This document shows positions 62-63,720 of a stretch of DNA of 64,000 bases, one piece after another (the first letter of the stretch is position 1; each line of letters opens with the position of its first letter). The translations under genes and the position numbers were made by a program. The notes beneath the pieces are model-generated. The model worked only from the letters and a program-made list of their open reading frames with translations, had not been told where the DNA came from and made no database searches. Source of the stretch: Thiomicrospira aerophila AL3 (GTDB lineage Bacteria; Pseudomonadota; Gammaproteobacteria; Thiomicrospirales; Thiomicrospiraceae); contig NZ_CP007030.1 in assembly GCF_000227665.2 (NCBI RefSeq), positions 1,798,001 through 1,862,000 on the forward strand, given 5' to 3'.

Positions 62-964
62 CTATCCGCGCGGATGATGTTGTTGATGAAGCTGTTTGAG
101 TCGCGCTTTAGCGACATGGGTATAAATTTGGGTAGTAGATAAATCGCTGTGTCCAAGCAGTAACTGCACACTGCGTAAATCCGCTCCATGATTAATTAAA
201 TGCGTCGCAAAGGCATGCCGCAACCCATGGGGTGATAGTGTACCAGTGAGACCCGCCTGTTGCGCAAGATTATGGATACGATGCCACAATGTTTGTCGTG
301 TCATCGGGCGACCGATTCGTGAAACAAACACCTCATCCAGCACGGCGCCCGGTTTAAGCAGGCCTGGTCGGGCACGCGCTAAATACTGCGACAACCAATC
401 CTGCGCCCACTCACCTAGCGGAATAATCCGTTGTTTATTGCCCTTCCCCACCACCATCAGCAGGCCTGCTGCTAAATCCACCTGTGCAATCGGCAAGCTA
501 ACGACCTCAGATACTCGTAAACCAGTTGCATACATCAGCTCTAAAATAGCACGATCGCGCAACCCTAACGCTGTGCTGACATCCGGTGCGGCCAGTAACG
601 CATCAATATTTTGCTCTGACAACACCTTAGGAATCGCTTTTAAACGTTTGGGGGCTTGCAACTGTTGTGCTGGATGCACCGACAACCAGGCCTGGTGCAG
701 AGCAAACTTATACAGACGCTTGATAGCCGCCAAGCGTCGGGCAAGCGTTTGCGGTTTAGCTTCTGCCGATAACCCCGCTAAATACTGACGAATATCAGCC
801 TCTTGCCAAGTTAGCCAAGCAGCGGATGTCAAGGCTGTTTCACCGCCAGTCCGCAGCACAAAATCACGTAAGTCACGCTGATAAGCCTGTTGTGTTGCAC
901 GGCTTAAACCTTGCGCAAGATGCAAATAACGCATAAAGGCGGCTAAGGCTTGATCAAATGGCAT
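62..964 (-). CDS. xerD: Site-specific tyrosine recombinase XerD
   Basis: This 300-residue protein matches XerD in length. XerD acts with XerC at the dif site, under FtsK control, to resolve chromosome dimers at division. An N-terminal SAM-like core-binding domain (about 1-90) precedes the catalytic domain. The tyrosine recombinase residues are visible: Arg in GLRVSE, His and Arg in PHGLRH, His in LLGHSDLST and the nucleophile Tyr in IYTHV. The frame is open to a TTG 21 bp upstream, but ATG 964 is preferred because GGAGAGGGGTGGG precedes it. XerC is the alternative; sequence style and the possible dsbC neighbour favour XerD. Three CAGGCCTG copies fall in this gene (359, 461, 687). Confidence 0.9.
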   Translation of the reverse strand: MPFDQALAAFMRYLHLAQGLSRATQQAYQRDLRDFVLRTGGETALTSAAWLTWQEADIRQYLAGLSAEAKPQTLARRLAAIKRLYKFALHQAWLSVHPAQQLQAPKRLKAIPKVLSEQNIDALLAAPDVSTALGLRDRAILELMYATGLRVSEVVSLPIAQVDLAAGLLMVVGKGNKQRIIPLGEWAQDWLSQYLARARPGLLKPGAVLDEVFVSRIGRPMTRQTLWHRIHNLAQQAGLTGTLSPHGLRHAFATHLINHGADLRSVQLLLGHSDLSTTQIYTHVAKARLKQLHQQHHPRG

Positions 965-1001
965 AAGAGACCCACCCCTCTCCAAATTAACGCAGTATAA
1001 A

Positions 1002-1042
1002 ACAAAAAACCCCGGTTAGCAGGCCTGCTGTTAACCGGGGTT
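1002..1042 (-). terminator. Rho-independent terminator of the efflux operon, with CAGGCCTG in its loop
   Basis: Perfect 11-bp arms (1008-1018 and 1032-1042) enclose a 13-nt loop that contains the palindrome GCAGGCCTGC (1019-1028). Read on the minus strand the hairpin is followed by a run of six T. It lies between the end of the RND pump gene (1079) and xerD (964), so it should stop the efflux operon before xerD. Confidence 0.85.
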
Positions 1043-1078
1043 GATCTGTCATCACCAACAGAGCATATTGTTCAAGAC

Positions 1079-4438: not shown

Positions 4439-5538
4439 TATTCAACGCGCTCCAGCATCGCTGTTTGAGTCACTACACGATCACCATTGACCAGGGTTTG
4501 ATTGTTACTCACCACAATCACTTCACCCATATCTAGGCCTGCTTGTACTTCAACATCCGCGCCTTTTTGCGCGCCTAAACGCACCATACGGAACTGCACC
4601 CGCGCATCATCCGTAACCACAAATACACCTTCAATACCGGCGCGATTAACGACGGCCGCTTGTGGAATCATAATCGCTTGGCGCTCGCCACGAATAAAAC
4701 TAATGCGAGCAAAGGTACCCGAGTTAACATTATCCACCACCGGCAAGCTTAATTTGGTGGTATGACCACGAGTACGCGGATTCGCTGCCGCTACTAATGA
4801 ATAAATCTCACCTTCTAGCACTTGGCTAACGCCATCTACCTGAATTAGCGCCTTATCACCCACTTTAATCGCCGCAAATAAATCTTGTGACACTTCAGTT
4901 TGTACGCTTAATGAACGCAAGTTTTCAATCACCACAATCGGATTACCCGGCGCCGCTAAATCACCCGCTACCGCTAACTTTTGCACTATCACACCATCAA
5001 AAGGCGCTCTAACATTAGCATAGGTCAACTGTGCTTCCGCTTGCTCTAAACCGGCACGGGCCGCTGCAAGGTTTTCTTGCGCCACGTTATATTGCAAACG
5101 CACGCCATCAAACTGCTGACGAGATACCGATTCTTCACGTAATAATTGACTGAAACGATCAAAATCGGCCCGTGCATTTTCCAACGCCGCTTGAGCTTGT
5201 TGAAACGCTGCACGCGCTTGCGAAATCTGGCTGTTAATATCTTGTGGATCAATGGTAAACAGCAGATCACCACGCTTAACGTGATCCCCTAACTGCACCG
5301 GTAATGTCTGAATATTACCCATTAAACGCGAAGCAATGCGAGCTTGCTGGTCCGGCACCACCGAACCCGGCACATTCACCAATACCGGTACGGTGCCTAA
5401 CTGCACTTGAGTCACCGTCACTTCATGGGTATTAACGGCATCATTTTGCGCACCGGCTGGGGTTGGCTCATCACTACATCCGCTTAAGCCAAGCGACATT
5501 GCTAGCAGGCCTGCTAAAGCCAAAGAATAACTTTTCAT
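4438..5538 (-). CDS. RND efflux periplasmic adaptor (membrane fusion protein) lipoprotein
   Basis: This 366-residue adaptor should bridge the pump to the outer-membrane channel. It begins with a lipoprotein signal (lipobox LGLSGC, Cys about 21), so it is probably anchored to the outer face of the inner membrane. A lipoyl/barrel-sandwich half (RIASRLMGNI) precedes an Ala/Gln-rich coiled-coil hairpin (about 105-170) and the second half-motif (VRAPFDGVIVQKLAVAGD). Beta-barrel and membrane-proximal domains follow. It is the middle gene of the three-gene operon, directly abutting the outer-membrane factor gene and overlapping the pump gene by 1 nt. A CAGGCCTG copy (5506) lies in the signal-peptide region. 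Confidence 0.92.
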   Translation of the reverse strand: MKSYSLALAGLLAMSLGLSGCSDEPTPAGAQNDAVNTHEVTVTQVQLGTVPVLVNVPGSVVPDQQARIASRLMGNIQTLPVQLGDHVKRGDLLFTIDPQDINSQISQARAAFQQAQAALENARADFDRFSQLLREESVSRQQFDGVRLQYNVAQENLAAARAGLEQAEAQLTYANVRAPFDGVIVQKLAVAGDLAAPGNPIVVIENLRSLSVQTEVSQDLFAAIKVGDKALIQVDGVSQVLEGEIYSLVAAANPRTRGHTTKLSLPVVDNVNSGTFARISFIRGERQAIMIPQAAVVNRAGIEGVFVVTDDARVQFRMVRLGAQKGADVEVQAGLDMGEVIVVSNNQTLVNGDRVVTQTAMLERVE

Positions 5539-7729: not shown

Positions 7730-8866
7730 ATGACCCGTCGTATTGTCATTGATGACGCCCTCCCCCTTGCAACTGAGATGTTTAGTCACCTCGGTGACAT
7801 TATATTACTCCCCGGCCGCGCTATTTATGCCCAGGCTGTTGCCGACGCTGATGCACTGGTGGTACGTTCGCGCACCCAAGTCAACGAAGCGCTACTGGCC
7901 AATAGTCGCGTTAAATTTGTTGGCAGCAGCGTAGTCGGCTTAGATCACGTTGACCAGGCCTGGTTAGCGCAACAGGGGATCCATTTTTATTCCGCACAAG
8001 GCTGTAATGCGAACTCAGTGAGTGAGTATATTATCACGCTGCTGGTCGAGCAGGCCTGCTTGCGCCAACAAGACTTTCACCAGCTCACAGTGGGTGTAGT
8101 AGGTGTCGGCCATGTCGGCCAAAAGGTGGTGGCCAAAGCACAGGCGCTAGGATTTAACCTCTTGCTCAATGATCCGCCACGTCAAGATCAAGGCGATGCC
8201 TGTCCCGCTGGCGATTGGCAAGCCTTGGACGACCTATTGCATCAAGCCGACATCATTACCCTGCATACCCCGCTGACCGGTGAGGGCGCCCACCCCAGTG
8301 CCAATCTGATTCACGCTAAGCGCTTGGCTAAACTGCGCGCAGACCAAGTGCTGATTAACGCGGCGCGCGGCGGCATTGTTGATGAGCAGGCCTGGTGCCA
8401 AAGCGCGATGACCACAAAACTAATCGATTGCTGGCAAGACGAGCCTAACATAAACGCAAACCTCTTCAACCAAGCCACGATGGCCACGCCTCACATTGCC
8501 GGACATAGCTATGAAGCCAAGCTAGCTGGCGGTTTATGGGCCTATCAACAGCTATGCCAATTTTGGCAAGAGCCTGAGCAACACCACTGGCAGCAGTCCT
8601 GCCCCAGCACACCGGCACCGCTACAATTCAATAGCGAATTAACGCATTGGCCGGCCATCTTGCTGGACCTGCTCCATCAAGCCTATAACCCCCACCACGA
8701 TCATCAACGTTTGCGGGCTAAAACCATCGAACAGGTTCGGCAACAATTTGAAACACAACGTCGTGATTACCCAATTCGTCGTGAATGGACCCAACACCGC
8801 ATCGCCAAGTTTGCACAAAAAGAATGGAATCAAGCCTTGCAATCACTTGGTTTTCAGCTATATTAG
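7730..8866 (+). CDS. pdxB: 4-phosphoerythronate dehydrogenase (pyridoxal 5'-phosphate synthesis)
   Basis: PdxB oxidises 4-phospho-D-erythronate in the deoxyxylulose-dependent vitamin B6 route. The 378-residue length equals E. coli PdxB. A D-isomer 2-hydroxyacid dehydrogenase fold is visible: NAD-binding GVVGVGHVG, TLHTPLT, the Arg region AARGGIVDE and the catalytic His in PHIAGHS, followed by the PdxB-type C-terminal dimerisation domain. ATG 7730 is chosen over an upstream ATG because TTTGGAG precedes it. Three CAGGCCTG copies (7955, 8051, 8387) encode QAWL, QACL and QAWC. Confidence 0.9.
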   Translation: MTRRIVIDDALPLATEMFSHLGDIILLPGRAIYAQAVADADALVVRSRTQVNEALLANSRVKFVGSSVVGLDHVDQAWLAQQGIHFYSAQGCNANSVSEYIITLLVEQACLRQQDFHQLTVGVVGVGHVGQKVVAKAQALGFNLLLNDPPRQDQGDACPAGDWQALDDLLHQADIITLHTPLTGEGAHPSANLIHAKRLAKLRADQVLINAARGGIVDEQAWCQSAMTTKLIDCWQDEPNINANLFNQATMATPHIAGHSYEAKLAGGLWAYQQLCQFWQEPEQHHWQQSCPSTPAPLQFNSELTHWPAILLDLLHQAYNPHHDHQRLRAKTIEQVRQQFETQRRDYPIRREWTQHRIAKFAQKEWNQALQSLGFQLY

Positions 8867-11202: not shown

Positions 11203-11269
11203 CCTGGTTAGCCTGCTAACCAGGCCTGCCCCGGCGCCGCTTGCTCCCCCAAGCCCCGGGGCTTTTTTT
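11203..11269 (+). terminator. Tandem hairpins after the FadL-type gene, with a CAGGCCTG overlap
   Basis: The first hairpin has 9-bp arms CCTGGTTAG (11203-11211) and CTAACCAGG (11216-11224); its right arm overlaps the CAGGCCTG copy at 11221-11228. The second is the palindrome AAGCCCCGGGGCTT (11251-11264) running into a T tract (11263-11269), which is the likely terminator. Confidence 0.75.
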
Positions 11270-12192: not shown

Positions 12193-12232
12193 TTTAAGTT
12201 CTAGTTTTAACTTTAGAGTCAGATTGCCTATC

Positions 12233-12260: not shown

Positions 12261-12267
12261 GGCGAAC

Positions 12268-14375: not shown

Positions 14376-15554
14376 ATGAATGTCGGTATTGATCTAATCC
14401 ACTTTGCCACCGCCGATTTTTATCTCGGGCTGGACGTCTTTGCGCAACAAAAAAACCAAGACTTAAATAAATACCATGTGGGCATTGGCCAAGAAAAAAT
14501 GTCGATTGCGCCGCCCGATGAAGATGTGGTCACCCTCGCCGCCAAAGCCTGCGACCCCGTATTAGCCGCCAGCGACCCCAGCCTAATCACAGCAGTCTTT
14601 TTTGCCACCGAATCCGGTGTCGATCAATCTAAATCAGCCGGTGCTTTTTTACATGGCCTACTTGGGCTGCCTAACCGTTGCCGCGTAATGGAATTTAAAC
14701 ACGCTTGTTATGCCGGTGCCGCCGCGTTACAAATGGCAGTGAACAGTGTGCGCGCCAATCCTAATGAACGCATTTTGGTCGTTGCCGCCGACATTGCACG
14801 CTATGATGTGGACACCTCCGGCGAGGCCACCCAAGGTTGTGGCGCGGTGGCCATGCTAGTGACCGCCAATCCGCGCATTATGGCGATTGAACCTGGTTCA
14901 GGTTATTACACTGAAGATGTCATGGATTTTTGGCGCCCCAATCACCGCGATACCGCGCTAGTTGATGGTAAGTACTCAACCAAAGTTTACCTGCATAGCT
15001 TGAAGCAGGCCTGGTCACACTTTCAAGATGCGACCGGACGTGGCTTTGCCGATATTCAGCATTTCTGCTATCACATTCCGTTTACTAAAATGGCCGAAAA
15101 AGCCCATAAGCAGCTGGTTAAACTCGCGGGGGTGGCGCAGGATGACGCCCAAACCCAAACACAGATTCAACCCAGCCAAATCTATAATCGGGTGATCGGC
15201 AATAGTTACAGTGCCTCGCTGTTTGTCGGTTTTTGTTCACTGTTAGATTATTACGCGCAAAAATCGACTGATTTAAGTGGTGATCGCGTCGGGCTATTTA
15301 GCTATGGTTCAGGTTGTGTTGCTGAATTTTTTAGCGGCGTATTGCAAACCGGCTACCAAGCGCATTTATTCACCAAAAGCCATTTAGCGCAAATAGCGCA
15401 ACGCAAGGCGTTAAGCTATGCTGATTATTTGGCCTATTATCAACAGCCTCAGCCGAATGAGGCGAATATCACTTTTGATGTCTATCATGCTGGCCCCTAT
15501 CGCCTCGCGGGCATTCAAGACCACAAACGCTACTATCTCAAAACCGAGGCCTAG
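14376..15554 (+). CDS. mvaS: Hydroxymethylglutaryl-CoA synthase
   Basis: This 392-residue enzyme condenses acetyl-CoA with acetoacetyl-CoA. The catalytic residues fall at the positions known for Staphylococcus aureus MvaS: Glu79 (FFATESGVD), Cys111 (FKHACYAGA) and His233 (CYHIPFTK). It lies 20 bp after the isomerase gene and 1 bp before the mevalonate kinase gene. No acetoacetyl-CoA thiolase gene is in the window, so that step must be encoded elsewhere. A CAGGCCTG copy at 15006 encodes the QAW of KQAWSHF. Confidence 0.95.
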   Translation: MNVGIDLIHFATADFYLGLDVFAQQKNQDLNKYHVGIGQEKMSIAPPDEDVVTLAAKACDPVLAASDPSLITAVFFATESGVDQSKSAGAFLHGLLGLPNRCRVMEFKHACYAGAAALQMAVNSVRANPNERILVVAADIARYDVDTSGEATQGCGAVAMLVTANPRIMAIEPGSGYYTEDVMDFWRPNHRDTALVDGKYSTKVYLHSLKQAWSHFQDATGRGFADIQHFCYHIPFTKMAEKAHKQLVKLAGVAQDDAQTQTQIQPSQIYNRVIGNSYSASLFVGFCSLLDYYAQKSTDLSGDRVGLFSYGSGCVAEFFSGVLQTGYQAHLFTKSHLAQIAQRKALSYADYLAYYQQPQPNEANITFDVYHAGPYRLAGIQDHKRYYLKTEA

Positions 15555-15555: not shown

Positions 15556-16617
15556 ATGCGGGAGCAACTGCACGCGCAGGCTCCCGCCAAGCTCATTTTA
15601 AGTGGTGAGCATGCGGTACTCTATGGCTGCCCTGCCTTAGCCACGAGCATTGATTTACCCACGCAGGTCACTTTAACCCTTGATTCAACTCAACCAGCCG
15701 GTTTAACACTGGATTTAATCGACTTTACCCGTCACTATTCATTTAGCTGGCATGACGTGTTGGCACGCGGTGCGATTTTGCAGCAGCGTTACCGCGCCTT
15801 TCAACAAGGCCAGCTGACGATTGACCAACTACTTACTCGCCCGAGTGATCTGGTGATATTAGTCTTAAGCCATGGCGCTATTTCACCTCTGATTCAGCAG
15901 CAGGCCTGCTCAATTCAAATCCGTTCCCAGGCCTGGTTAGGCCGCGGTTTGGGCAGTTCAGCGGCTTGTTTGCTGGCACTTTTGGCCGTCTGGCGTAATG
16001 CACAGCGACCCAATGTAAGCGATGATCTCACTTTAGCCGTGCTGATTGAGCAGGCGCAACACCTCGAAAATTGGCAACATGGTCGCTCCAGTGGCCTTGA
16101 TCCCAGTATTATTGCATTGGGCGGCGCTGGCCGATTTGAACGCGCAACCGGACTCACGGCCCTGCCATCCTGGCCCTTGTCAGCCTGGTTAATTGATACC
16201 GGTGCGCCACACAGTAGCACCGGTGAATGTGTCAGTGATGTGGCACGACGCTATGATACGCAAGCGGCTATTTGGCCTGAATTTAAGCAGGTCACAGAAC
16301 TAATGCAGCAGGCCTGGTTAGCCCAAGATCTAAACGCACTAAAACTGCAACTTAATCACAATCACCAACTGCTTAGACAACTCGGCGTCGTACCTAGCGC
16401 ACTCGATGCACCGATTGCACAGCTGCAACAGCTTGGCGGCGTGAAACTCTGCGGCGCCGGCAGTATTGCAGGCGATGCCGGTGGGGTATTGCTTTATCTG
16501 GGTGACACGCCACCGGATGCGATTTGCCAAACACAAGGCTGGCGCGCACAACCCATTCAATTAGGCTCAGCTGGGCTAACCTGGACTAAGTTGGCCGCAA
16601 ACGGAGCGATCAAATGA
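15556..16617 (+). CDS. mvk: Mevalonate kinase (GHMP family)
   Basis: This 353-residue kinase phosphorylates mevalonate. GHMP motifs in order: APAKLILSGEHAVLYG (motif 1), the ATP loop GRGLGSSAAC (motif 2) and GAGSIAGDAGG (motif 3). HGRSSGLDPS carries the catalytic Asp in the pattern seen in mevalonate kinases. ATG 15556 follows the previous stop by one base; the longer upstream frame overlaps mvaS and is rejected. Its stop overlaps the next start by 4 nt (ATGA). Three CAGGCCTG copies occur, two of them (15901, 15928) only 27 bp apart. Confidence 0.88.
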   Translation: MREQLHAQAPAKLILSGEHAVLYGCPALATSIDLPTQVTLTLDSTQPAGLTLDLIDFTRHYSFSWHDVLARGAILQQRYRAFQQGQLTIDQLLTRPSDLVILVLSHGAISPLIQQQACSIQIRSQAWLGRGLGSSAACLLALLAVWRNAQRPNVSDDLTLAVLIEQAQHLENWQHGRSSGLDPSIIALGGAGRFERATGLTALPSWPLSAWLIDTGAPHSSTGECVSDVARRYDTQAAIWPEFKQVTELMQQAWLAQDLNALKLQLNHNHQLLRQLGVVPSALDAPIAQLQQLGGVKLCGAGSIAGDAGGVLLYLGDTPPDAICQTQGWRAQPIQLGSAGLTWTKLAANGAIK

Positions 16618-48144: not shown

Positions 48145-48933
48145 ATGAACAATGAATGGCTATTTCGTGTCACTGAAACTTGGCGCTTTACCAAAGCCTT
48201 GGTTGCAAGCCAGCAGGGCCGACATTTTTTATGGCAGCACCTGTTAAATACCTTCTTAATAGCAGGCCTGTTAACCCTATCTTTTTTTATTGTGATGTTT
48301 GGTTTTTATGAAGGCACACCGATGCGTCGCCGCTCAGTGGCGATCAGCTTTTCGCTGCTACTTACTTTTTTAATCATCTATCCTTTAGCCACCATGCCAT
48401 TCTTTTCTTTTAAAGACTTGGTCAATAAAATCAGTCTGCGCCTAACCGGCCGTTTGGTCTTTACCAACCTGAGTGATCATGTGTTTTACAGCCAAGACAG
48501 TGATGGCCAAATTACCCTGCACCTTGCTAAAGCGCACCATGTGCTGGCGCAAAAGCACGCCTACCTTCGCCAGCAACTCGAAAAAGGCAAGGCCGATAGC
48601 GCACAGGTATCAAAGCACTTGAGTCTGGCACTCGCCAAATCAATTCGTGACGCTGTACGCCTATCGAAAGAATTAGTTAAAACAGGTCGATTAAACCCCC
48701 AACAACCTATTAGTGGCGCAACCTATGGCTACTTGTTTGGGACCGCAAAGAGTAAACTGAAATTGCGCCGAGTTGAACCAGGCCTGCTAAAACGTTGGCT
48801 AGGACATTGGTTTTATAAGTTCGGTGCATTACACGCAGTATATATGTACTTTATTATTCACCAACAATTACCCCCTTCATTCGACCCAGTTTATTTCCAA
48901 GCGACGGTTGGAGATGTGATCGGAATTCAATAA
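48145..48933 (+). CDS. Unknown membrane protein with two N-terminal helices
   Basis: I do not recognise this 262-residue protein. Two hydrophobic helices (about 32-56 and 66-88) are followed by a basic, soluble region with helical stretches (LHLAKAHHVLAQKHAYLRQQL, then LSLALAKSIRDAVRLSKELV) and a Tyr-rich patch near the C-terminus. AAGGTG lies about 9 nt before ATG 48145; a GTG four codons earlier is possible. It ends directly before rlmD, whose TTG follows its TAA, so the two may be cotranscribed. Two CAGGCCTG copies (48263, 48779) encode AGL and PGL. Confidence 0.65.
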   Translation: MNNEWLFRVTETWRFTKALVASQQGRHFLWQHLLNTFLIAGLLTLSFFIVMFGFYEGTPMRRRSVAISFSLLLTFLIIYPLATMPFFSFKDLVNKISLRLTGRLVFTNLSDHVFYSQDSDGQITLHLAKAHHVLAQKHAYLRQQLEKGKADSAQVSKHLSLALAKSIRDAVRLSKELVKTGRLNPQQPISGATYGYLFGTAKSKLKLRRVEPGLLKRWLGHWFYKFGALHAVYMYFIIHQQLPPSFDPVYFQATVGDVIGIQ

Positions 48934-50205
48934 TTGAAACTACCTAATCGCCGATATGCCAAGCCTGTTAACAGACAGGCTAAAACCCATTTAAAACCCG
49001 GACAAACCCTTGCCAACATTACCATAACGGACCTATCTGAAGCAGGACAAGGTGTCAGCAAAATTCAAGGAAAAACCCTGTTTGTTGAAGGTGCTGTGCC
49101 TGGTGACCTGGTCACCATCCAGATTATTGATGACTTACCACGCTATACGCTGGCCAAGCTAATCGAAATTGAACTGCCTTCGCCCGATCGTACGGAACCC
49201 TTCTGTTCAATCTATGCTACATGTGGTGGATGTCAGCTTCAGCACCTATCGATTAGCGCACAGCGCCATTGGAAACAGCAACAGCTGATGCAAGCGCTAA
49301 CCAAATTGCAGCCCAAACCCGTCATTACCTGGCATGACACACCCAATACCCCTGATCGCGCATACCGTCGACGGGCCAAATTGATTCTTGGTCGCGACTG
49401 GCAAGATCAGGCACCCGTGCTGGGTTTTCGCAGCCCACAAAGCCATCAAATAGTAGATGTCACTCAGTGTCCGATTTTGGCAGCAACGATTAATCAAACC
49501 CTTGCGTCAGAACGTCCCGCTTGGTTGCAACAAGCGGCAACACGCAATCAAACTCTCTGGCTCACCGCGGGTGACAACCAAGTCCAAACCCAACTAGGTG
49601 AGACCGACAAAGAACAGCATGATTTTGACGCAGTAGCGGAGGCACAAAGCTTTTATAGCTTGATGGGGCTAAGGTTTTATCATGCTGCGACTAGCTTTAT
49701 TCAAGTCAACCAGAGCGTAAATGAACAGCTTGTGGCGCAAGCTTTAAACTGGCTCCAGCTTGATGCTCATAGCAAGGTCATCGATTTTTTCTCTGGAATT
49801 GGTAACTTTAGTTTGCCAGCCGCACAACAGGCCAGCGCCCTATTAGGCATAGAAGGGAATCCTCAGGCAGTCACTTTTGCGCGACACAACGCCAAGGTAA
49901 ATGATGTGCATAATGTTAAATTTAGGGTAGCGAATTTATTTGATACGCCTGAGCAGCAGGCCTGGTGGTCATGGTCAGCGGATTGCGCCATTTTGGACCC
50001 AGGTCGAGCCGGCGCCGAAGCCTTGTGTGCAAAACTTGGTCAAACTCAGCTAAAACGCTTGGTCTATGTATCCTGCCATCCAGGTAGTTTAATCCGTGAT
50101 TTAGGCCTACTTTTAGCCCAAGGTTTTGTTATTGAACAAGCTCAACAATTCGATATGTTTAGCCATACTAAACATATCGAAAGCTTAGTGTGTCTTACCC
50201 GCTAA
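48934..50205 (+). CDS. rlmD: 23S rRNA (uracil-1939-C5)-methyltransferase
   Basis: This 423-residue enzyme methylates U1939 of 23S rRNA. An N-terminal TRAM domain (about 15-75) precedes the iron-sulfur Cys cluster (CSIYATCGGCQ plus Cys in VTQCPIL), the AdoMet-binding motif VIDFFSGIGNFSLPAA, DPGRAGAEALC and the catalytic Cys in VYVSCHPGSLIRDL. The start is TTG directly after the preceding stop, supported by the basic N-terminus; the gene ends 17 bp from a convergent chemoreceptor gene. The CAGGCCTG copy at 49957 encodes QQAWW. Confidence 0.92.
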   Translation: MKLPNRRYAKPVNRQAKTHLKPGQTLANITITDLSEAGQGVSKIQGKTLFVEGAVPGDLVTIQIIDDLPRYTLAKLIEIELPSPDRTEPFCSIYATCGGCQLQHLSISAQRHWKQQQLMQALTKLQPKPVITWHDTPNTPDRAYRRRAKLILGRDWQDQAPVLGFRSPQSHQIVDVTQCPILAATINQTLASERPAWLQQAATRNQTLWLTAGDNQVQTQLGETDKEQHDFDAVAEAQSFYSLMGLRFYHAATSFIQVNQSVNEQLVAQALNWLQLDAHSKVIDFFSGIGNFSLPAAQQASALLGIEGNPQAVTFARHNAKVNDVHNVKFRVANLFDTPEQQAWWSWSADCAILDPGRAGAEALCAKLGQTQLKRLVYVSCHPGSLIRDLGLLLAQGFVIEQAQQFDMFSHTKHIESLVCLTR

Positions 50206-52816: not shown

Positions 52817-55800
52817 TTATTTTTTATATCGGTCGAGGTCTGTACCTAGTTCAGCTACCAGTGCTCTGCTATTCACACCAGCAGGTTGGCTAAAACGTCC
52901 AAGTAACGCATACACTGCAGGAATGACAATTAAAGTCAGTACAGTAGCTATCGCCACGCCCCAAATTAACACCATACCTAATACATAACGCGTTTCTGCA
53001 CCGGCACCCGAGCTTAATATCAATGGCACCGCCCCTACGCAAGTAGTAATGGCCGTCATCAGTATAGGCCGCAGTCGCATACAAGAGGCATCAATCAACG
53101 CTTCTTTAAATGCAATACCTTGATCACGTAATTGATTAGCAAACTCGACAATTAATATACCATTTTTAGTGGCGAGGCCAATAAGCATTACCAACCCAAT
53201 TTGCGTATATAGATTAAGAGTGAGGCCGTATAGCCACAAACCTAACAAACCACCTAATACCGCAAGGGGCACTGTAAACATGATTATAAACGGACTGACA
53301 AAACTTTCAAACTGAGCAGAGAGCACTAGAAAAACCACCACAAGACCCAGTAAAAATACAAACAATACAGCATTACCTGAAGTCTGAAAATCACGGGACT
53401 GACCTTTATAGTCAATCATCGCATCCGGTGGCAAGAGTTCGCGTGCCAGATTTTCCAAATGAGCCAGCCCCTCCCCTAGACTTAAATGAGGTGCTAGGTT
53501 TGCATCAATCGTGACTGAGCGCATCCGGTTGTAACGATTCAATGAACCGGAGTCGGCAAACTCCTCGTAACTGACTAAACTTGATAAAGGAATTAATTCA
53601 CCAGTAGTGTTTGAACGCACATGAATCAGATCCAAACTGGTTGGCGAACGATACAAGCGACGATCAGCCTGTAAAATAATATCGTACTCTTCCCCCTGGT
53701 CAACAAAGGTTGTCACCCGTGTTGAACCCAACAGAGTTTGCAAAGTGCGACCAATTTCTTCAGTGGTCACCCCCATATCAAACGCTTTTTCATAATCGAT
53801 GTTAACGCGTAACTGCGGTTTGGTTTCTTTATAGTCCCAATCAACCGCCTCAAAGCCAGGGTTGTTGTCGTTAATCGCATCGGTAATAATGCGCCGCCAT
53901 TCCGCCAGTTCTGCATAGCTGCCGCCGCCTAACACGAATTGCACGGGTTTTTGCACCCGCCCGCCAATACCTTGGCGCATCACGGGATTGGCTCGAATAC
54001 CCGGCAAATCGGCCAAACGCTCGCGCACATCCTGCATAATCTCATTAGCAGGCCTGCGTTCTGACCAATCATTCAGCACCACAATGCCAATCCCGGTATT
54101 GAAAATTTCCGTATTGCCAAATGCACGCGGCGACCGAATTAACAAGCGATTGATTTCGCCATTTTCAACCAACGGCATTAAACGCGCTTCGACCTCATCT
54201 AGATAGGTTTTCATATAATCATGGGTCGCGCCCTCCGGACCCGATACAAAAATAAAGAATGCGCCACGATCTTCTCGAGGGGCATATTCTTCCGGAAGCT
54301 GTTGAAACAACCAGTAACTGGCATAGAAGGCTGCAAACAGAATTGGCAGGATCATAATAGGCCACTTAACGATGGCTTTTAAGATCGGACGATATGCCCT
54401 AATCATCATGCCATCCGGCGCTTGATAATCAGCAGGCCTGGTATTGTCCAATTCCGTATCGATATTTATAGCCGCTGACTTAGCGTTCGCTTTGCGTGCT
54501 TTTAACAACTTGGAGGCCAAGGCCGGTGATAAGGTCAAGGCAACAAAACTTGAGAAAATTACCGCTACCGTGAGCGTAATGGCAAATTCAGAAAACAATC
54601 GGCCCAAGGTGCCTTGTAAAAAACTAATCGGGAAAAATACCGCCACCAAAACCAGCGTAGTCGCAATGACTGCAAAACCGACTTGACGAGTACCCAAAAA
54701 GGCTGCGGCGAGCGGTGAGAAGCCTTTTTCAATATGCCGCTGTACGTTCTCAAGCACCACAATCGCATCATCGACCACCAAGCCAATCGCTAACACCAGG
54801 GCTAACAAGGTTAACAGGTTGATCGAAAATCCGAGCATCCACAACACCCAGAAGGTGGCAATAATCGAGACGGGTACCGTAACCAAAGGAATCAGGGCCA
54901 CGCGGACGCTACGCAAAAACAGCAAAATCACCAGCATCACTAACACAATCGCGATAGCAAGCGTTTTATAGACTTCGTTAATCGCGCTTTTGATAAATAC
55001 CGAACTATCATAGCTGGCTTTTATGGCCATACCGTCAGGCAAAATCGCGTTTAAACGTGCTACTTCGGCAGCAGCACCTTCGGCAACAGTAATGGTATTG
55101 GCGGTGGATTGTTTAATAATCCCTAAGCCAATCATCGGCAGACCATTGCCTCGGAAAAAACTGCGATTTTCGATCGAACCCAACTCGATGCGCGCAATAT
55201 CGGCTAGGCGTACCTGGGTTTGCGCGGAACCGCGCTTAACCACCAAACGTTCAAAATCGGCAACGCTGGTTAATTGACGATCCACCCTGACACTAAATGA
55301 GGTATCCTGCATGGTAACGGTACCCGCCGGTAATTCAATATTGGCACTGCGCAGCGTGCGTTCTACATCACTCACGGTGATATTGCGCATCGCCATTTCA
55401 TTGGCATCTAACCACAGGCGCATTGCATATTCCTGGCCACCGCCAATACGAACACGGGCCACACCGTCTAACACTGAAAAACGATCGACTAAATAACGCC
55501 GGGCATAATCCGTCAGCTCAGGCACCGTCATACTATCGGACGTGAGGTTGAACCATACAATCACATCATCGTCACCATCGACTTTTTGAACTTCAGGTTG
55601 ATCGGCACCGTCTGGTAAGTTACGCGCGACTCGTGCGACACGATCGCGCACATCATTAGCCGCAGAATCAATATCGCGGTCGATATTAAACTCAATCCGA
55701 ATCCGTGAACGCCCATCACTTGAGGTCGATTCGATAAATGAAATACCCTCAATACCGGCAATCTGATCTTCGATTAGCTTGGTAATGCGTGATTCAATGA

Positions 55801-55980: not shown

Positions 55981-57057
55981 CTATTGCGCGAATTCAGAAA
56001 TTTGACGCAATTGGTCGGCCACTTTCACCTGCTGACCGGGTCGAACACGCAAGGCGCCCTGGCTGACCACGGGTTCGCCCAATTCAGCGCCGCTTACCAG
56101 CTCAACCCAACCGGGTTCGCGCGCCCCTAGCACGACTTTTCGGCGCTCAATTTTGAATAACTCTGAATCCGCTTGGGCTTTGAGAACATAGACAAAGGTT
56201 TGATCGGCCATGGGCACAATCGCAGTTTCAGGCACGCGCAACAAGTTGCGCGGTGCCTTATCTAAGCGCACCGTCATTGCCATGCCTGGCAACAGGGTAT
56301 AATCGTGATTCGCCACTTTTGCTCTAACTTGAAAAGTCCGGGTAGCCGGGTCAAGACTAGAGAATACAGTGACCACCTCGCCTCGGATATCACGTTGATT
56401 CAACTGACTACTTTCTAACACCACTGTTTGACCTACCGCCACATCGCTTAAAAAACGCGCTGGCAAATGGAAATCAACCATCACCTCATCCAATTCAATC
56501 AAATCGGTCACTACCAGGCCTGGTGACGCCATGGCACCCTCGTTGACTTGACGCACGCCTAATCGACCAGCAAACGGAGCGCGCAATTCAAGACGCGCTA
56601 GGCGTACATTGAGTAATTCTTGTTGCGCCCGTAAGGTTTGGCGCATTAAATCCGCTTCATCTACCGCCGCTTGTGACACATCACCGCGTGCCAACAGCGT
56701 GCGTAAACGCGCCAATTGGCGGTCGGCATCCGCAAGGCGCACGGCCAACTCAGCCAATTGCGCGCGTACTTCAGCTTGATCCAGTGTTAAAAGTAACTGC
56801 CCCTCTTCAACCCAGTCACCATCGCCAAAATGCACCGCAACCACCCGTTCTGTTACGCTAGGTTGCAGTTCAACATGACGCTTGGCTAATACTTCACCCA
56901 AGCCCATAATCGACTCTGTGACCGTTGCCTGTTCAACATGGCCTTGAATAACTAATTGATTAGCTAAGAGTTGATGACTAAAGGTGACGCTCGCAATAAT
57001 ACTCGCTGCCAACAAAAACACCGATCTGCGCCACCACTGACCTGACAAATTAATCAT
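55981..57057 (-). CDS. RND efflux periplasmic adaptor (membrane fusion protein)
   Basis: This 358-residue adaptor has an N-terminal signal or anchor (RRSVFLLAASIIASVTF), a barrel-sandwich half-motif (VVAVHFGDGDWVEEGQLLLTLD), a coiled-coil hairpin (about 105-155), the second half-motif (LRAPFAGRLGVRQVNEGAM) and a beta-barrel. It lacks a lipobox Cys, unlike the adaptor at 4438-5538. It is first in the operon with the pump at 52817. Its upstream region is shared with divergent hemH and contains TATTAG and CTAAT half-sites (57116-57143) that weakly resemble the candidate operator of the other pump. Confidence 0.9.
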   Translation of the reverse strand: MINLSGQWWRRSVFLLAASIIASVTFSHQLLANQLVIQGHVEQATVTESIMGLGEVLAKRHVELQPSVTERVVAVHFGDGDWVEEGQLLLTLDQAEVRAQLAELAVRLADADRQLARLRTLLARGDVSQAAVDEADLMRQTLRAQQELLNVRLARLELRAPFAGRLGVRQVNEGAMASPGLVVTDLIELDEVMVDFHLPARFLSDVAVGQTVVLESSQLNQRDIRGEVVTVFSSLDPATRTFQVRAKVANHDYTLLPGMAMTVRLDKAPRNLLRVPETAIVPMADQTFVYVLKAQADSELFKIERRKVVLGAREPGWVELVSGAELGEPVVSQGALRVRPGQQVKVADQLRQISEFAQ

Positions 57058-58412: not shown

Positions 58413-60329
58413 TTAGCGTCCAAACGGATTAGGTAGGCGTTGACGTAACTCTTGTTCGGCACGCCCTCGCACCTCATCTTCCGCTTGCTGCTGCAACTGA
58501 CGCTCTAAAGCGCGACGCTGCTGATCTCCTTGCTGATCCAAGCCCGCATACCCCTGCACTAAAGACATCAACTCTGCTTGATCTAGATTCAAACTCGCCA
58601 ATTGCGCATCCAAAGGCGCCATCGCCTCTGCTAAACGTGACTCAATTTCTTGGGTAAGCTGCTGTTGTAATTGCGCTATTTCCTGCTGCATAACCTGGCG
58701 TAAACCACTGGCAAAGCGCCGATCTAAATCCGATGACGCCGACAATCTTGGTGCCCAAGGCGACCCCACCAGGCCTGCTTCGACTTTAAAGCTATCCACC
58801 CCACTAAAAATCGGCTGCAATAATCGCAATACCGTGGCGGAATCAGATTGACTAACATCCAGTTTAGCCTGCTGATACTGCATTACCAAACTTGCATCAA
58901 TCCGTTCTAAATTGGTTAACTGCAACCGCCCAGTCCAATCGGCTAAGGCCGACTGCATCACCACCGGCAAACTGGCTGAATCCACTAACTGCCAATCTTC
59001 GATAGCATAATCCAGCCAGTTAAACCGAGCATCACTGACCCAATCTTTGCCACGCCCATCTACTTGACCCACTAACTGCCAAGGACTGACTTGCGCCGCC
59101 TGTGTAAGGCTAAATTCAAATTCAATAGGTTGCTGGCTGGTTGGATGATCAAAATTTAAAAATTTAATTTCACCACGCATCGGTCCATTTGCCAGTTCCG
59201 CGCTGACTTCTAAAGCTTTAAGCATAAAGTCTGGCTGGGGATCATATTCCGTAAAAGCAATGTATTCGCCTTCCCATCGTGCCGGTCCAGTTGCAGCAGC
59301 ACTTTCAGCCGCCGCTTGCGCTTCGGCACGATAATTTTGCCACCATGCAATAAGCGGCTGCGCGCGATGATACAAACCTAAACCCTGGTCTAAATAACCT
59401 TGAATGGTTTCGCCAAACAACAAATAGGTCATGTTAGATAAACCTTGCTCATCTAACGTATAGGTTGCCAGTAAACGACGGGCATCTGCAGCCGGCAGGC
59501 CTGGTAACGACCTAATCGACGCGCGAATGCCCGGCATTTGCTCATCAAATAAACTTCGTGCGCGTGCTAGGGTTTGTTGATCCTGTTGCCACTGTGCTTG
59601 AAGTTCAGCTAAGGCCTGTTGGCGCTGTGGAATTTGACTCACATCACTCAAATCACCCTCTAATAACGCAGCTAAACGGGTTTGATACTCCGCTAAACGC
59701 GCCGGCGTGGGCAGATTCGGCTGCAAGCTTTGCCACTCCGTTTTAATTTGTTCCAACTGTGCGGCCAGCGCCTGGCTTTGTTCAAGGGTTTGCAAGGATT
59801 CACGACTTAAAATGGTGTCAGGATCTGGCAGTGCCAAATTAGGTAAGGGGACGCTCTCCGCCAATCGTTCAACCCGGCTGGATTCAGATTGTGCATCAGA
59901 CCTAATCGGTAAGGCGCCGTCGCGGGAGCGCGGCTGATCAAACGCCACTCCTGTGATGCGTGCCTGTTCAATCACTGTGCGCCCCACCACCAGATGATAC
60001 AAATTCAAATCAAACGCAATCCGATCAATCACCAACGCATTTTGCATGGTGTTATGAGTATCGGTGATCGCTAAACCGCGCAATTCCATGCCCAGCGGCG
60101 TCAATCCAAAACGCAAGCTGGCGATATCTACCTTGGCACCCCATGCAGCCGACGCCGCACGTTCAAGCTGAGCTTTTAAGGCCCACTGCGAAACGACATA
60201 AGTTAAGCCACCCCCTACAACTAGCAGGCCTGCTAATAACATCACCCCCGACCAACGCACCCAGCCTTTTGGAGCGGCCAATTTTTTTGCGGTCGTGTTA
60301 TTTGCCTCAGTTTTAATCGGCTCACTCAT
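58413..60329 (-). CDS. TIGR03545-family protein (unknown function, exported)
   Basis: This 638-residue protein has one N-terminal hydrophobic helix (about 28-48), then a long periplasmic region: an AsmA-like stretch (AAWGAKVDIASLRFGLTPLGMELRGLAITD), a Gln/Ala-rich coiled coil (about 175-270), a second AsmA-like region and a Gln-rich C-terminal coiled coil ending NPFGR. TIGR03545 proteins occur only in bacteria with outer membranes, usually paired with TIGR03546, as here. ATG 60329 overlaps the preceding stop (ATGA). The AsmA-like parts suggest a role in envelope lipid handling; that is inference. Three CAGGCCTG copies. Confidence 0.82.
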   Translation of the reverse strand: MSEPIKTEANNTTAKKLAAPKGWVRWSGVMLLAGLLVVGGGLTYVVSQWALKAQLERAASAAWGAKVDIASLRFGLTPLGMELRGLAITDTHNTMQNALVIDRIAFDLNLYHLVVGRTVIEQARITGVAFDQPRSRDGALPIRSDAQSESSRVERLAESVPLPNLALPDPDTILSRESLQTLEQSQALAAQLEQIKTEWQSLQPNLPTPARLAEYQTRLAALLEGDLSDVSQIPQRQQALAELQAQWQQDQQTLARARSLFDEQMPGIRASIRSLPGLPAADARRLLATYTLDEQGLSNMTYLLFGETIQGYLDQGLGLYHRAQPLIAWWQNYRAEAQAAAESAAATGPARWEGEYIAFTEYDPQPDFMLKALEVSAELANGPMRGEIKFLNFDHPTSQQPIEFEFSLTQAAQVSPWQLVGQVDGRGKDWVSDARFNWLDYAIEDWQLVDSASLPVVMQSALADWTGRLQLTNLERIDASLVMQYQQAKLDVSQSDSATVLRLLQPIFSGVDSFKVEAGLVGSPWAPRLSASSDLDRRFASGLRQVMQQEIAQLQQQLTQEIESRLAEAMAPLDAQLASLNLDQAELMSLVQGYAGLDQQGDQQRRALERQLQQQAEDEVRGRAEQELRQRLPNPFGR

Positions 60330-60829
60330 TTGAACCACCCCGCTAGACTACTGGCTTTATCGCTCATCATGATAATGCGGACAATTTTAAACCGCTGAGC
60401 CCAAGCTAAAAATCGCTTACGATAGATTCGAATGAGCACTAAACTCAACCCAAAAAATGGCACCGCTAGCGTATAAGCGACCGCGATACTGCCCAACACA
60501 ATCGTATTATTAAATGACATAAAGCGCCAGAACGCTGTGTTATACATCTCCGTCCACATAGGCACCAGGCCTGGTAATTGCAACAACCAGGCACCAAAAC
60601 TATTAAAGAGTGGATCAAACAGATAAGCGATAACAGTAAAGACAGCCCAGGCTACTAACACCGCAGACACATTCACCCGCAATACTAAAATCAGCAACAG
60701 GGTCAAAAGGGTATGAGGAAACCAAAAAGGTGTAAGCCCCAACAGCATACCCAGGGTTAGTCCTAGCGCAATTTGCGATGGGTGTTGATTGGCGTTAATC
60801 GCCTTCATAAACTGAATAAAGCTATTCAA
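60326..60829 (-). CDS. TIGR03546-family membrane protein (DUF2062-like)
   Basis: This 167-residue protein has about four hydrophobic segments and the DUF2062-type core HPSQIALGLTLGMLLGLTPFWFPHTLL, with an Asp in FDPLFNSFGAWL. It overlaps the TIGR03545 gene by 4 nt, and the two families are known to form a gene pair. TTG 60829 is the likely start, with AGGA 6 nt upstream; the longer frame lacks a ribosome site. A CAGGCCTG copy lies at 60566 (PGLV). Confidence 0.85.
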   Translation of the reverse strand: MNSFIQFMKAINANQHPSQIALGLTLGMLLGLTPFWFPHTLLTLLLILVLRVNVSAVLVAWAVFTVIAYLFDPLFNSFGAWLLQLPGLVPMWTEMYNTAFWRFMSFNNTIVLGSIAVAYTLAVPFFGLSLVLIRIYRKRFLAWAQRFKIVRIIMMSDKASSLAGWFK

Positions 60830-60897
60830 ATTCAATCCTTTTATGTAAAAACTAACGAACAATTTGATAATTCTACCACAGCCCTGCTCAGACCATT

Positions 60898-63141
60898 TCA
60901 GCCCATTTCTTGCGGATCAACATCCAGACTCCAGCGCACTCGATTAGCTAGTGGGTGGGCATAAACAGCGGCTGCCACCGCTTGCCACCAGGCCTGCAAG
61001 CTTGCGCGGCTCGAGGCTTGCAGAAGCAGTTGATAGCGCCAGCGATTTTGGCGCTTAGCCATTGGAGCCGACACCGGCCCCCAAACCTCGCAGGGTTCAG
61101 TGACTGGCACCGCCAGTAACAGCGCTTTAATGGCCTCTAAAAACGCGACGGCTTGGGCTGAATCTAGCGCCTCAACTCGCACCAAAAGTTGAAAACTAAA
61201 CGGCGGCAAATTCGCGATTTGGCGGTCACCCAGGGTTTGCGCGGCAAAGCCAGCATAGCCTTCGCGTAAAAGTTGTTGATAAGTAGGGTGTTCGGGTTGA
61301 TGCGTTTGAATCAACACGCGTCCGGCTTGCGTTCCACGACCCGCCCGACCGGCGACCTGCACTAATAATTGCGCCATCCGTTCAGCACCACGAAAATCAA
61401 CGCTAAACAAGCCTTGATCTAAATCCAGCATTACCACTAGCGTCAACTTTGGAAAGTGATGACCTTTGGCCAACATCTGAGTACCAATTAGAATATCGGC
61501 TTCACCATCGCGCGCCTGGGTCACCTTTTCGGCCAAACTGCCCTTTAATCGCGTCGTATCGCGATCGATACGCAAGATAGTGTGTTCAGGAAATTGGATC
61601 GTTAAAAACTGTTCTAAGCGTTCGGTACCTTGCCCCATGGCTACAAAGTGCGCGCTACCACAGGCCGGACATACCTTGGGCTTGGGCTGCTGAAAGCCAC
61701 AATGATGACATTTCAAGGTATCGCTGGCATGGTGATAGGTCAGATTGGCATCACAATGCGAACAGGCGCCCTGCCAGCCACAAGAATGACAGAGCAATAC
61801 CGGCGCAAAACCACGCCGATTTAAAAACACCAATACCTGCCCTCCCGCCGCCAAGGCTTCACGCATCTGCCCCAACGCCTTATTCGACAAACCCTCTTGT
61901 AAACGATCGCCCCGGACATCCAGCAAGCTCAAGTGTGGCGGTTGTGCCTCCCCCGCCCGCTGACTCAGGCGCAAATAGCGATAGCGGCCCGTTTGGGCAT
62001 TGTGCAAACTCTCCATACTCGGCGTTGCCGACCCTAATAGCACCGGGATGTTAAGTAAATGCGCCCGGCGAATCAGCAGGTCACGCGCGGAATAACGAAA
62101 CCCATCTTGCTGTTTAAACGACAAATCATGCTCTTCATCCAAAATACATAACCCCAAATCAGCAAAGGGCGAGAAAAGCGCCGAACGCGTACCGAGTAAC
62201 ACACTTGCCTCCCCTCGGCGCATCACCTGCCACGCACAATGGCGTTCTTGATCATTTAAACCCGAGTGCAACGCCACTACTGGCTGCTGTAGATAGGCCT
62301 CAAAACGCGCTGCGGTTTGCGGGGTCAGCCCAATTTCAGGCACCAAAACCAGCACTTGTTTTCCCTGCGCTAACACTTGTTCAATTAAGGCTAAATAGAC
62401 TTCGGTTTTACCGCTACCGGTCACGCCATCCAGCAAAAAACAACCAAAACCCTGGCTCGCTTGCACGCTCGTAACCGCCGCTTGCTGCTCGTCATTAAGC
62501 AGATGACGCACTGGATTTGGCAGGGACTTGTGCGCTAAACAGGGCCCTTCTTTAACGGCTAACCAGCCCTGCTCCACCCAGCGCTTTACAAGCGGCTGCC
62601 AGCCACTGAACGACGCATTAAGTTGACTGGACGACCAGGCCTGGTCATTGGAGAGCGCTTGCCAAAGTACCCGTTGTTTATGGGCGCGAGCACTGAGCTG
62701 GTCCACACTGATGCTTTGACCTAAAGCCGAACGCTGCCAAGTCATCACACCCGGCAGTGCTAACGGCTCGCCATCGCGCAACCGCTTGGGCAAGGCAGCC
62801 ATCACCACCTCGCCAATCGGTTCGTGGTAATAATTCGCGGCCCAGCGTAAAAATTTAAGGTCTTGAGAATTCAAAACCGGTTCTTGGTCTAACTTGACTA
62901 ATAGAGGTTTAAGTTTACTGAGTTCAACCCCATCATCCTGATCCACGCCTACCACCACCGCAATGCGCGTTTGATTGCGAAACGGCACCCGCACCCGCCA
63001 ACCCAGCCAGTCAGCTAGCCAAGCCGATTGCAAGGATGGGTCGGTGGCAACCGACAGAGAGTCGTCAGGCACTAGATAGCTGAGGGGCTGCCAAAACGGC
63101 CCCGGTAACGCCACTTGAACGCGCAGAAATTTAGTTTGCAT
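60898..63141 (-). CDS. priA: Primosomal replication restart helicase PriA
   Basis: This 747-residue helicase restarts stalled replication forks. The N-terminal 3'-DNA-end binding domain and winged helix (about 1-200) precede the helicase core: Walker [23 protein letters not shown] box LDEEHDLSFKQ and motif VI VQVAGRAGRG. The eight-Cys zinc-binding insert is complete (CHSCGWQGACSHC, then CHHCGF and CPACGS). The C-terminal domain ends at 60898. Two CAGGCCTG copies (60989, 62636) are present. Confidence 0.96.
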   Translation of the reverse strand: MQTKFLRVQVALPGPFWQPLSYLVPDDSLSVATDPSLQSAWLADWLGWRVRVPFRNQTRIAVVVGVDQDDGVELSKLKPLLVKLDQEPVLNSQDLKFLRWAANYYHEPIGEVVMAALPKRLRDGEPLALPGVMTWQRSALGQSISVDQLSARAHKQRVLWQALSNDQAWSSSQLNASFSGWQPLVKRWVEQGWLAVKEGPCLAHKSLPNPVRHLLNDEQQAAVTSVQASQGFGCFLLDGVTGSGKTEVYLALIEQVLAQGKQVLVLVPEIGLTPQTAARFEAYLQQPVVALHSGLNDQERHCAWQVMRRGEASVLLGTRSALFSPFADLGLCILDEEHDLSFKQQDGFRYSARDLLIRRAHLLNIPVLLGSATPSMESLHNAQTGRYRYLRLSQRAGEAQPPHLSLLDVRGDRLQEGLSNKALGQMREALAAGGQVLVFLNRRGFAPVLLCHSCGWQGACSHCDANLTYHHASDTLKCHHCGFQQPKPKVCPACGSAHFVAMGQGTERLEQFLTIQFPEHTILRIDRDTTRLKGSLAEKVTQARDGEADILIGTQMLAKGHHFPKLTLVVMLDLDQGLFSVDFRGAERMAQLLVQVAGRAGRGTQAGRVLIQTHQPEHPTYQQLLREGYAGFAAQTLGDRQIANLPPFSFQLLVRVEALDSAQAVAFLEAIKALLLAVPVTEPCEVWGPVSAPMAKRQNRWRYQLLLQASSRASLQAWWQAVAAAVYAHPLANRVRWSLDVDPQEMG

Positions 63142-63192
63142 CGTTTTTCATCTGGATGATTTTTCGGCTAAAATGTTGATTTTACCTTGTTG

Positions 63193-63720
63193 ATGACCTG
63201 CATGCATTTCTTACAGCTTTTTATCTTCTGGCAAAACCGTTTCCAACAATCTGTTGGTCACGCGGTGGCATGGCTGAGCTTGGCACTAGTACTGACGACC
63301 GCAGCAGCGGTGTTATTGCGCTATGGCGTCAATTTTAGTGCCAGCAAACTGGATGAAAGCCTTATCTATATGCATGCGACCTTGTTTATGCTAGGAATCG
63401 CCTATACCTATCAACAAAATCAACATGTGCGGGTAGATGTGTTTTATCAACGTTGTTCGCTGCGCACCCAAACTTGGATTAACCTACTCGGTGCAATCTT
63501 ATTTGTACTACCCGTGATGGTGTTTATTATTTGGGCGGGGCTAAGTTATGTAGGCGCAAGCTGGGCGATTCAAGAAAAATCGCTCGATGCCAGCGGGCTG
63601 CCGTATGTATATCTGCTTAAAACCTTAATTCTAATTATGCCAGGCCTGGTGATCCTGCAAACGCTCGGCCTGATTGCGCAGTCTCTGCTCACCCTGCTTC
63701 ATGTTGAGGAACCCGCATAA
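63193..63720 (+). CDS. TRAP transporter small permease (DctQ type)
   Basis: This 175-residue membrane protein has four hydrophobic helices and the DctQ pattern: RYGVNFSASKLDESLIYMHATLFMLGIAYTYQQNQHVRVDVFY. TRAP systems import organic acids or similar solutes with sodium. The start may be ATG 63193 or 63202; no strong ribosome site is seen. Its stop overlaps the large-permease start by 1 nt. No periplasmic binding protein gene is in the window. A CAGGCCTG copy at 63641 encodes PGLV. Confidence 0.85.
   Translation: MTCMHFLQLFIFWQNRFQQSVGHAVAWLSLALVLTTAAAVLLRYGVNFSASKLDESLIYMHATLFMLGIAYTYQQNQHVRVDVFYQRCSLRTQTWINLLGAILFVLPVMVFIIWAGLSYVGASWAIQEKSLDASGLPYVYLLKTLILIMPGLVILQTLGLIAQSLLTLLHVEEPA

Follow-up and report, generated by a model that had tools for sequence, protein, structure and literature searches.

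A densely iterated, exact palindromic octamer in Thiomicrospira and its relatives, and the case for a DNA uptake sequence

DNA uptake sequences (DUS) of Neisseriaceae occur in hundreds to thousands of copies (about 1900 in genomes of 2.2-2.3 Mb), lie both within and between genes, and differ as dialects among related species; eight dialects are described, five Neisseriaceae genomes are without an obvious one, and inverted DUS pairs are probable terminators (PMC3630211). Islands poor in DUS mark integrated conjugative elements in Neisseria (PMC7371117). The uptake signal sequences (USS) of Pasteurellaceae have a non-palindromic core, near-misses of which are 11-fold over-represented in Actinobacillus pleuropneumoniae (947 one-mismatch words against 86 on a composition-based expectation; PMC1939737), and the segments flanking USS have been tied to DNA melting (PMC12616744). 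In the relevant passages of PMC3630211, PMC1939737 and PMC7811141, sequence-specific DNA uptake is named only for these two families. HIP1 (GCGATCGC), the highly iterated palindrome of cyanobacteria, is a GC-rich octamer present about once per 1-2 kb; other words substitute for it in some relatives, and high-HIP genomes generally have a matching methyltransferase (PMC4390886). Here we describe the octamer CAGGCCTG, iterated through a 64-kb stretch of Thiomicrospira aerophila AL3 (positions 1798001-1862000 of the single 2,158,359 bp contig of genome G000; the whole stretch is called the window) and through the genomes of many relatives. On balance, CAGGCCTG, flanked as A[C/G]...[C/G]T, is probably a DUS/USS-type uptake sequence whose dialect here is palindromic.

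With DUS the word shares a copy number of the same order (1128 in 2.16 Mb), dialects among related species, sites inside and between genes, inverted pairs, and the dyad symmetry of overlapping pairs in Simonsiella. One probable mobile island lacks the word, as islands poor in DUS would, but genes of atypical codon usage are not poor in sites. It differs from DUS in that its core is mostly palindromic with almost no one-mismatch excess. Neisseriaceae are Betaproteobacteria and not close relatives of this family. With USS it shares the over-representation of a short word and, in several dialects, AT-rich tracts beside the core. The HIP1-like look recorded in the original prediction is real, as both words are GC-rich palindromic octamers at comparable density, but no methyltransferase family searched is common to the carriers here and not all replacement words are palindromes. 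Chi and KOPS (FtsK-orienting polar sequences) are also octamers over-represented across the chromosome; their sites are asymmetric and polarised by replication, whereas both orientations mix locally here.

CAGGCCTG occurs 44 times in the window, from 359 to 63648, so that the original prediction of at least 44 copies was right and understated. Among 100 dinucleotide shuffles the mean was 0.97 and the maximum 4, none reaching 44. The predicted excess of about 45-fold held under composition or dinucleotide models, which expect 0.84-1.04 copies in the window, but not under a trinucleotide model, which expects 1.55 (about 28-fold), nor in a 464 kb sample of G000 (the window plus 20 stretches of 20 kb), where an order-2 Markov model with masked sites predicts 7.6 copies and 263 were counted (34.8-fold). 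In this sample the word ranked first among the 256 palindromic octamers, the runner-up having 53 copies. Its 1128 copies genome-wide amount to about one per 1.9 kb, against a single copy of the reversed word used as control. The bases flanking the 44 window sites are G or C in 84 of 88 cases and 29 copies match ASCAGGCCTGST, both exactly as first counted; the flanks in G000 hold little beyond A[C/G].

The claim that the signal is specific to the exact word was borne out. One-mismatch neighbours in the 464 kb sample number 180 against 162 expected from the order-2 Markov model, and two-mismatch words stand at 0.94-fold; on a composition-based expectation, one-mismatch words are at 1.4-fold in G000. 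Each of the 24 one-mismatch spellings has 0-6 copies in the window, where the neighbour pointed out at 4534 and near 42078 is TAGGCCTG, at 4534 and 42077. The exact count is thus far above Markov expectation, and mismatch variants are not equally abundant. Over the tested forms, 8-letter cores were 7- to 105-fold enriched when exact and 0.75-1.24-fold with one mismatch, single positions reaching 1.43-fold (position 4, pooled genus sample) and 2.05-fold (position 3, G028). Non-palindromic 10-letter cores gave 78- and 84-fold for the exact word and 0.80 and 1.11 for one mismatch. The 10-letter palindrome versions gave 0.7-9.6-fold with one mismatch, chiefly via the variable outer letter, with a lesser excess, from few copies, at some inner positions. 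If only the exact word were valued, mutation-selection balance would hold one-mismatch words near the neutral level, as observed, and by detailed balance the scaled selection on the exact word would be near ln 34.8, or about 3.5.

All-or-none recognition is typical of a dimeric site-specific protein. The word might therefore be the binding site of a chromosome-wide protein, serving nucleoid organisation, segregation or repair, that needs the exact palindrome every 1-2 kb. The 180 to 162 ratio fits such a protein, as do the placement of sites in ordinary genes and their near-exponential spacing in G000 (242 intervals, mean 1604 bp), where counts per 20 kb vary about twice Poisson.

Sites in the G000 sample are kept in close relatives more often than comparable octamers. 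In G002, 36 of 49 aligned sites are exact, against 18.6 expected from frame-matched octamers of equal GC (Fisher's test against the pooled control, 2e-7), and in G006 20 of 33, against 5.7 (2e-9), while 214 and 230 of the 263 sites, respectively, are without aligned sequence; this comparison had been proposed together with the original prediction. All 26 differences among the 82 aligned sites are substitutions, 19 of them by 1-2 bases. Changed sites read, for example, CAGGCTTG or CAAGCCTG, and both losses and gains are seen. An origin by insertion or as a mobile element was therefore rejected, in agreement with the original prediction. Among more distant genomes, G001 keeps 3 of 12 aligned sites, with an insertion or deletion at 1 of the 12 places, and G008 keeps 0 of 3.

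Turnover by point mutation also bears on whether the word is a HIP1-like by-product of repair or mutation bias, itself without benefit. Elhai's model yields about one site per 1000 nucleotides without functional selection (PMC4390886), and the 19 sites changed by 1-2 substitutions are in keeping with it. The same model, however, requires methylated GmeC supplied by a methyltransferase (PMC4390886), and no searched family is common to the carriers; moreover, we infer that a local mutation bias should enrich near-misses, which are close to expectation. We therefore rate this explanation as highly unlikely.

As predicted, copies lie in unrelated genes: 41 of the 44 window sites fall inside 25 different open reading frames (ORFs; at least 150 residues, one nested ORF excluded). 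The sites, to which no strand is assigned, were called by exact match, and by alignment as well where the state in G002 or G006 is given:
359..366, CAGGCCTG site
461..468, CAGGCCTG site
687..694, CAGGCCTG site
1020..1027, CAGGCCTG site outside ORFs of at least 150 residues; also in G002, CATGCCTG in G006
5506..5513, CAGGCCTG site
7955..7962, CAGGCCTG site
8051..8058, CAGGCCTG site; kept in G006, CAGGCTTG in G002
8387..8394, CAGGCCTG site
11221..11228, CAGGCCTG site outside ORFs of at least 150 residues; in G000 only among the three compared (alignment)
15006..15013, CAGGCCTG site, mevalonate genes
15901..15908, CAGGCCTG site
15928..15935, CAGGCCTG site
16309..16316, CAGGCCTG site
17331..17338, CAGGCCTG site
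17550..17557, CAGGCCTG site
17725..17732, CAGGCCTG site
20252..20259, CAGGCCTG site
20405..20412, CAGGCCTG site
22319..22326, CAGGCCTG site
25012..25019, CAGGCCTG site, pheT
25337..25344, CAGGCCTG site, pheT
26036..26043, CAGGCCTG site, pheT
33835..33842, CAGGCCTG site
35184..35191, CAGGCCTG site, lptF/G-like gene
36578..36585, CAGGCCTG site, lptF/G-like gene
37302..37309, CAGGCCTG site, leucyl aminopeptidase gene
38452..38459, CAGGCCTG site outside ORFs of at least 150 residues
43351..43358, CAGGCCTG site, uvrB; CAAGCCTG in G002
44530..44537, CAGGCCTG site, uvrB
45624..45631, CAGGCCTG site
47207..47214, CAGGCCTG site
48263..48270, CAGGCCTG site
48779..48786, CAGGCCTG site
49957..49964, CAGGCCTG site
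54049..54056, CAGGCCTG site; CAGGCCGG in G002
54433..54440, CAGGCCTG site
56515..56522, CAGGCCTG site; CAGGCTTG in G002
58770..58777, CAGGCCTG site
59496..59503, CAGGCCTG site
60225..60232, CAGGCCTG site
60566..60573, CAGGCCTG site
60989..60996, CAGGCCTG site, priA
62636..62643, CAGGCCTG site, priA
63641..63648, CAGGCCTG site

The PriA encoded in the window places Hydrogenovibrio and Thiomicrorhabdus as the nearest relatives (53-54% identity), and 62 genomes of the family, presumably Thiomicrospiraceae, were surveyed. Counts of CAGGCCTG split them into 32 rich genomes (236-1173 copies) and 30 poor ones (0-74); the reversed-word control reached at most 28 copies among the rich genomes. Each of the nine genomes in the window's genus belongs to the rich group (840-1128 copies), as does the one genome of genus g4 (409 copies). 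Genera g6 (7 of 11 rich) and g3 (15 of 32) hold both kinds, and g2, g5 and g7 are poor in the word.

Sequence samples from 10 further members of the family, and then from 21, were screened by word count and revealed a related word in some of the 30 poor genomes; together with genome-wide counts, 6 of the 30 hold one instead of CAGGCCTG. The sampled words were TTACCGGCCGGTAA in G029 (50 copies), AAAATCTRCCAGGYTGGG in G030, G032 and G034 (9, 13 and 11 copies) and AAAACTCAACAGGCCGGGT in G027 (14 copies), and the related word ACCGGCCGGT reaches about 1058 copies genome-wide in its carrier. Those of G030, G032, G034 and G027 are non-palindromic and carry a one-sided A-tract. Genome-wide, CCAGGYTGGG has 331 copies in G030, 371 in G032 and 403 in G034, and none of the remaining 59 genomes exceeds 15; two Hydrogenovibrio loci (L002 and L003) held 4 and 2 copies of it in 22 kb and zero CAGGCCTG. 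Forward and reverse counts of ACMGGCCGGK were 1058/1059 in G029, 311/312 in G027 and 174/193 in G071 (up to 623 and 367 for the last two with both strands summed, a palindromic match being scored twice); in G071 the word is represented by this degenerate pattern. With strands summed, no other genome exceeds 72, and those with at least 20 are within about threefold of the reversed control. Thus, 38 of the 62 genomes carry one of these words. The surroundings vary too: the extended form in G011 is AAAaatRACCAGGCCTGGTYattTTT, and A/T-rich arms surround CAGGCCTG in G020, G028 and, more weakly, G031. Separately, a 40 kb sample of G016 (L136-L137) held a direct-repeat array with AAGAGGTTTATAAG-like units, probably clustered regularly interspaced short palindromic repeats (CRISPR); this word disappears when counting is done by 600 bp bins.

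Of the 38 word-bearing genomes, 33 have a palindromic word, as a chromosome-wide binding protein would have it. The non-palindromic A-tract words of G030, G032, G034 and G027 and the complete change of word among congeners speak against such a protein, as does the lack of strong strand polarity, which counts against KOPS- or Chi-like roles in particular. We hold this explanation to be unlikely. Polarity could be assessed only in the non-palindromic dialects. There, strand totals of CCAGGYTGGG are near equal (143/188 in G030, 169/202 in G032 and 196/207 in G034) and both orientations are present in 11 of the 12 sampled stretches holding at least two sites, so that Chi- or KOPS-like polarity was rejected. 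Within genes, sense and antisense copies of the non-palindromic words number 2/5 in G030, 1/2 in G032, 3/1 in G034 and 8/1 in G027.

Another explanation makes the word the target of a DNA-modifying enzyme, whether an orphan methyltransferase or one of another kind, by which it is favoured or protected, much as cyanobacterial HIPs track matching methyltransferases (PMC4390886). Three Pfam families (PF00145, PF01555 and PF02086) were searched, and other families were not. G000 holds two PF01555 matches, in favour of this explanation, but its close relative G002, with 994 copies of CAGGCCTG, has none. Among the 32 rich genomes PF00145 (C5 methyltransferase) was undetected in 21, including all nine of the window's genus, PF01555 in 19 and PF02086 in 25. 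All three were undetected in 10 (G002, G003, G011, G020, G023, G033, G061, G063, G080 and G081), nine of which are at least 99% complete. Since no family searched is common to the carriers, a type II methyltransferase is disfavoured as the common cause, and for these three families the orphan methyltransferase of the original prediction was rejected as a general cause. With non-palindromic dialects in existence as well, modification appears distinctly unlikely. One of the G000 loci (L181:212-2562; G000:C1, about 1947758-1950108) has a 505-residue PF01555 methyltransferase adjoining a 272-residue protein that matches no NCBIfam family; the two may form a restriction-modification pair, and 3.9 kb here hold zero CAGGCCTG sites.

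Genomic context was analysed in 15 genomes with gene calls from our own simple script. If the words were transcription terminators or other intergenic stem-loops, they should be found between genes. Density is indeed 2-19-fold higher there in 11 of the 15 genomes, and sites are more closely packed in convergent than in divergent gaps in most palindrome-bearing genomes (G000, G001, G002, G006, G020, G028, G029, G031 and, slightly, the non-palindromic G032, from small class numbers). Against this, 240 of the 263 sites of the G000 sample are genic (0.57 per kb) and 23 intergenic (0.52 per kb), which led us to reject a terminator-only reading for G000. G002 and G006 are alike, at 1.1-1.2-fold between genes; none of these three genomes shows the enrichment, and G059 has zero sites between genes in its 20 kb. 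The convergent preference is absent in G011, G008, G027, G030 and G034, again from small class numbers. We give terminators only a very slight chance.

An uptake sequence is favoured over a palindrome-binding enzyme by the exchange of related words between congeners, by one-sided A-tract words in both orientations and by the lack of a common methyltransferase family. The intergenic enrichment in most genomes, the mixed orientation, the turnover by point mutation and one site-free island also fit the DUS/USS kind. Uptake had been one of several roles listed in the original prediction, with the objection that known uptake sequences are not palindromic. That objection fails, because dyad-symmetric DUS are published and sister genomes here carry non-palindromic relatives: in Simonsiella muelleri, Frye et al. 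2013 counted 1294 pairs of DUS that overlap with dyad symmetry and linked them to possible dimeric recognition (PMC3630211). By analogy, the present palindromes would be built in this way.

From these patterns we infer uptake, a receptor and kin-biased recombination. A receptor on the competence pilus would recognise the exact word on free DNA, bind it and deliver the DNA to the ComEC channel. Uptake and recombination would then favour close kin, whose DNA has the word about every 2 kb; a point mutation giving rise to the word would spread by transformation, and one destroying it would be replaced. Exact copies would build up in the resident genome rather than in newly acquired elements, and a shift in receptor specificity would let a new dialect accumulate. 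The palindrome may be two overlapping half-signals (CAGG/CCTG), of which one-sided forms are kept in some sister species.

Several observations weigh against an uptake sequence. The near absence of a one-mismatch excess (180 against 162) is the main misfit, beside the 11-fold excess for USS (PMC1939737) and the one-mismatch DUS of Neisseria, which outnumber exact ones (PMC3630211). None of these words was found in 24 of the 62 genomes; samples of 20-100 kb from 11 such genomes had no other prominent word, although sparse words could escape samples of this size, and the sampling did not extend to G012, G058, genus g7 or several genomes of g3. The ACCGGCCGGT form is without CAG/CTG. Sites of different dialects never coincided in alignments (0 of 26), and in-place conversion of dialects was thereby rejected. 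The G030 strand totals are about 2.5 standard deviations off equality, 8 of 9 intragenic sites in G027 are sense, and convergent ends are not enriched in the five genomes named above. Two inverted pairs less than 60 bp apart speak for uptake, but the pair statistic is weak (P 0.095). The expectation that codon-atypical genes are poorer in sites was not borne out (0.77/kb against 0.49/kb). ComEC (PF03772) is encoded in 31 of the 32 rich genomes and 5 of the 6 with another word; as 20 of the 24 genomes in which no word was found have it too, its presence allows for uptake without telling carriers apart. No receptor was identified, the GspH/FimT family search giving three weak matches and no ComP or PpdA/ComN search having been made. 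The open-access papers searched gave no transformation record for Thiomicrospira or Hydrogenovibrio, and the main text of PMC6501319, on Hydrogenovibrio genomes, mentions neither competence nor transformation. As the original prediction had it, no report of the motif was found: none of the open-access papers searched contains CAGGCCTG or deals with an uptake sequence in these two genera, a weak absence with subscription papers outside the scope.

Besides ComEC, the sole competence feature sought was pilin N-termini, present in 18 of 18 genomes examined. The three GspH matches are all in genomes with no word found (L267 in G016, and G010 and G075). L267, the one locus inspected, is a type II secretion pseudopilin operon (GspF-G-H-I-J-like), and a FimT/GspH receptor was set aside. 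Candidates for a tip pilin are encoded by adjacent G000 genes at L281:480-2175 (G000:C1, about 1676509-1678204), specifying pilin-like proteins of 331 and 245 residues. Both have counterparts in G002 and the longer one also in G020 (37% identical); Pfam finds at most an N-terminal methylation motif in them, and the longer, cysteine-rich one matches no PDB chain.

More tentatively, we suggest that the words could form a third, separately evolved self-label system outside Neisseriaceae and Pasteurellaceae, made of exact, mostly palindromic words, apparently without a dedicated methyltransferase, and switched between congeners. Its reader could be a new kind of pilus-tip receptor, perhaps dimeric and all-or-none. 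If true, a third family with palindromic and non-palindromic dialects in congeners would open to comparative testing the long-standing question of what drives the evolution of uptake words and how their specificity changes, and would suggest that sulfur-oxidising bacteria have a new receptor.

Within the G000 sample, the longest gap between sites spans 13,946 bp (L123:4676-18622; G000:C1:1214677-1228623; GC 0.42), a length reached under random placement with probability 0.02. Four of its nine scanned proteins have a Pfam family, including an ArdC/MPTase-PolyVal protein and DUF3577, and the gap is a probable word-free mobile island with an ArdC anti-restriction protein. Protein constraint may explain two other long gaps, over thrS-infC-pheS in the window and over a flagellar cluster (L125); three further gaps above 5.5 kb are unannotated. 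At L125:5974-7191 a Mutator-family transposase lies between flhA- and flhB-like flagellar genes of G000.

A run of mevalonate-pathway genes, in a gammaproteobacterium, occupies 11371-18735 of the window and contains seven CAGGCCTG sites. It encodes HMG-CoA reductase and synthase, GHMP kinases, diphosphomevalonate decarboxylase and an FMN_dh protein that may be the isomerase.

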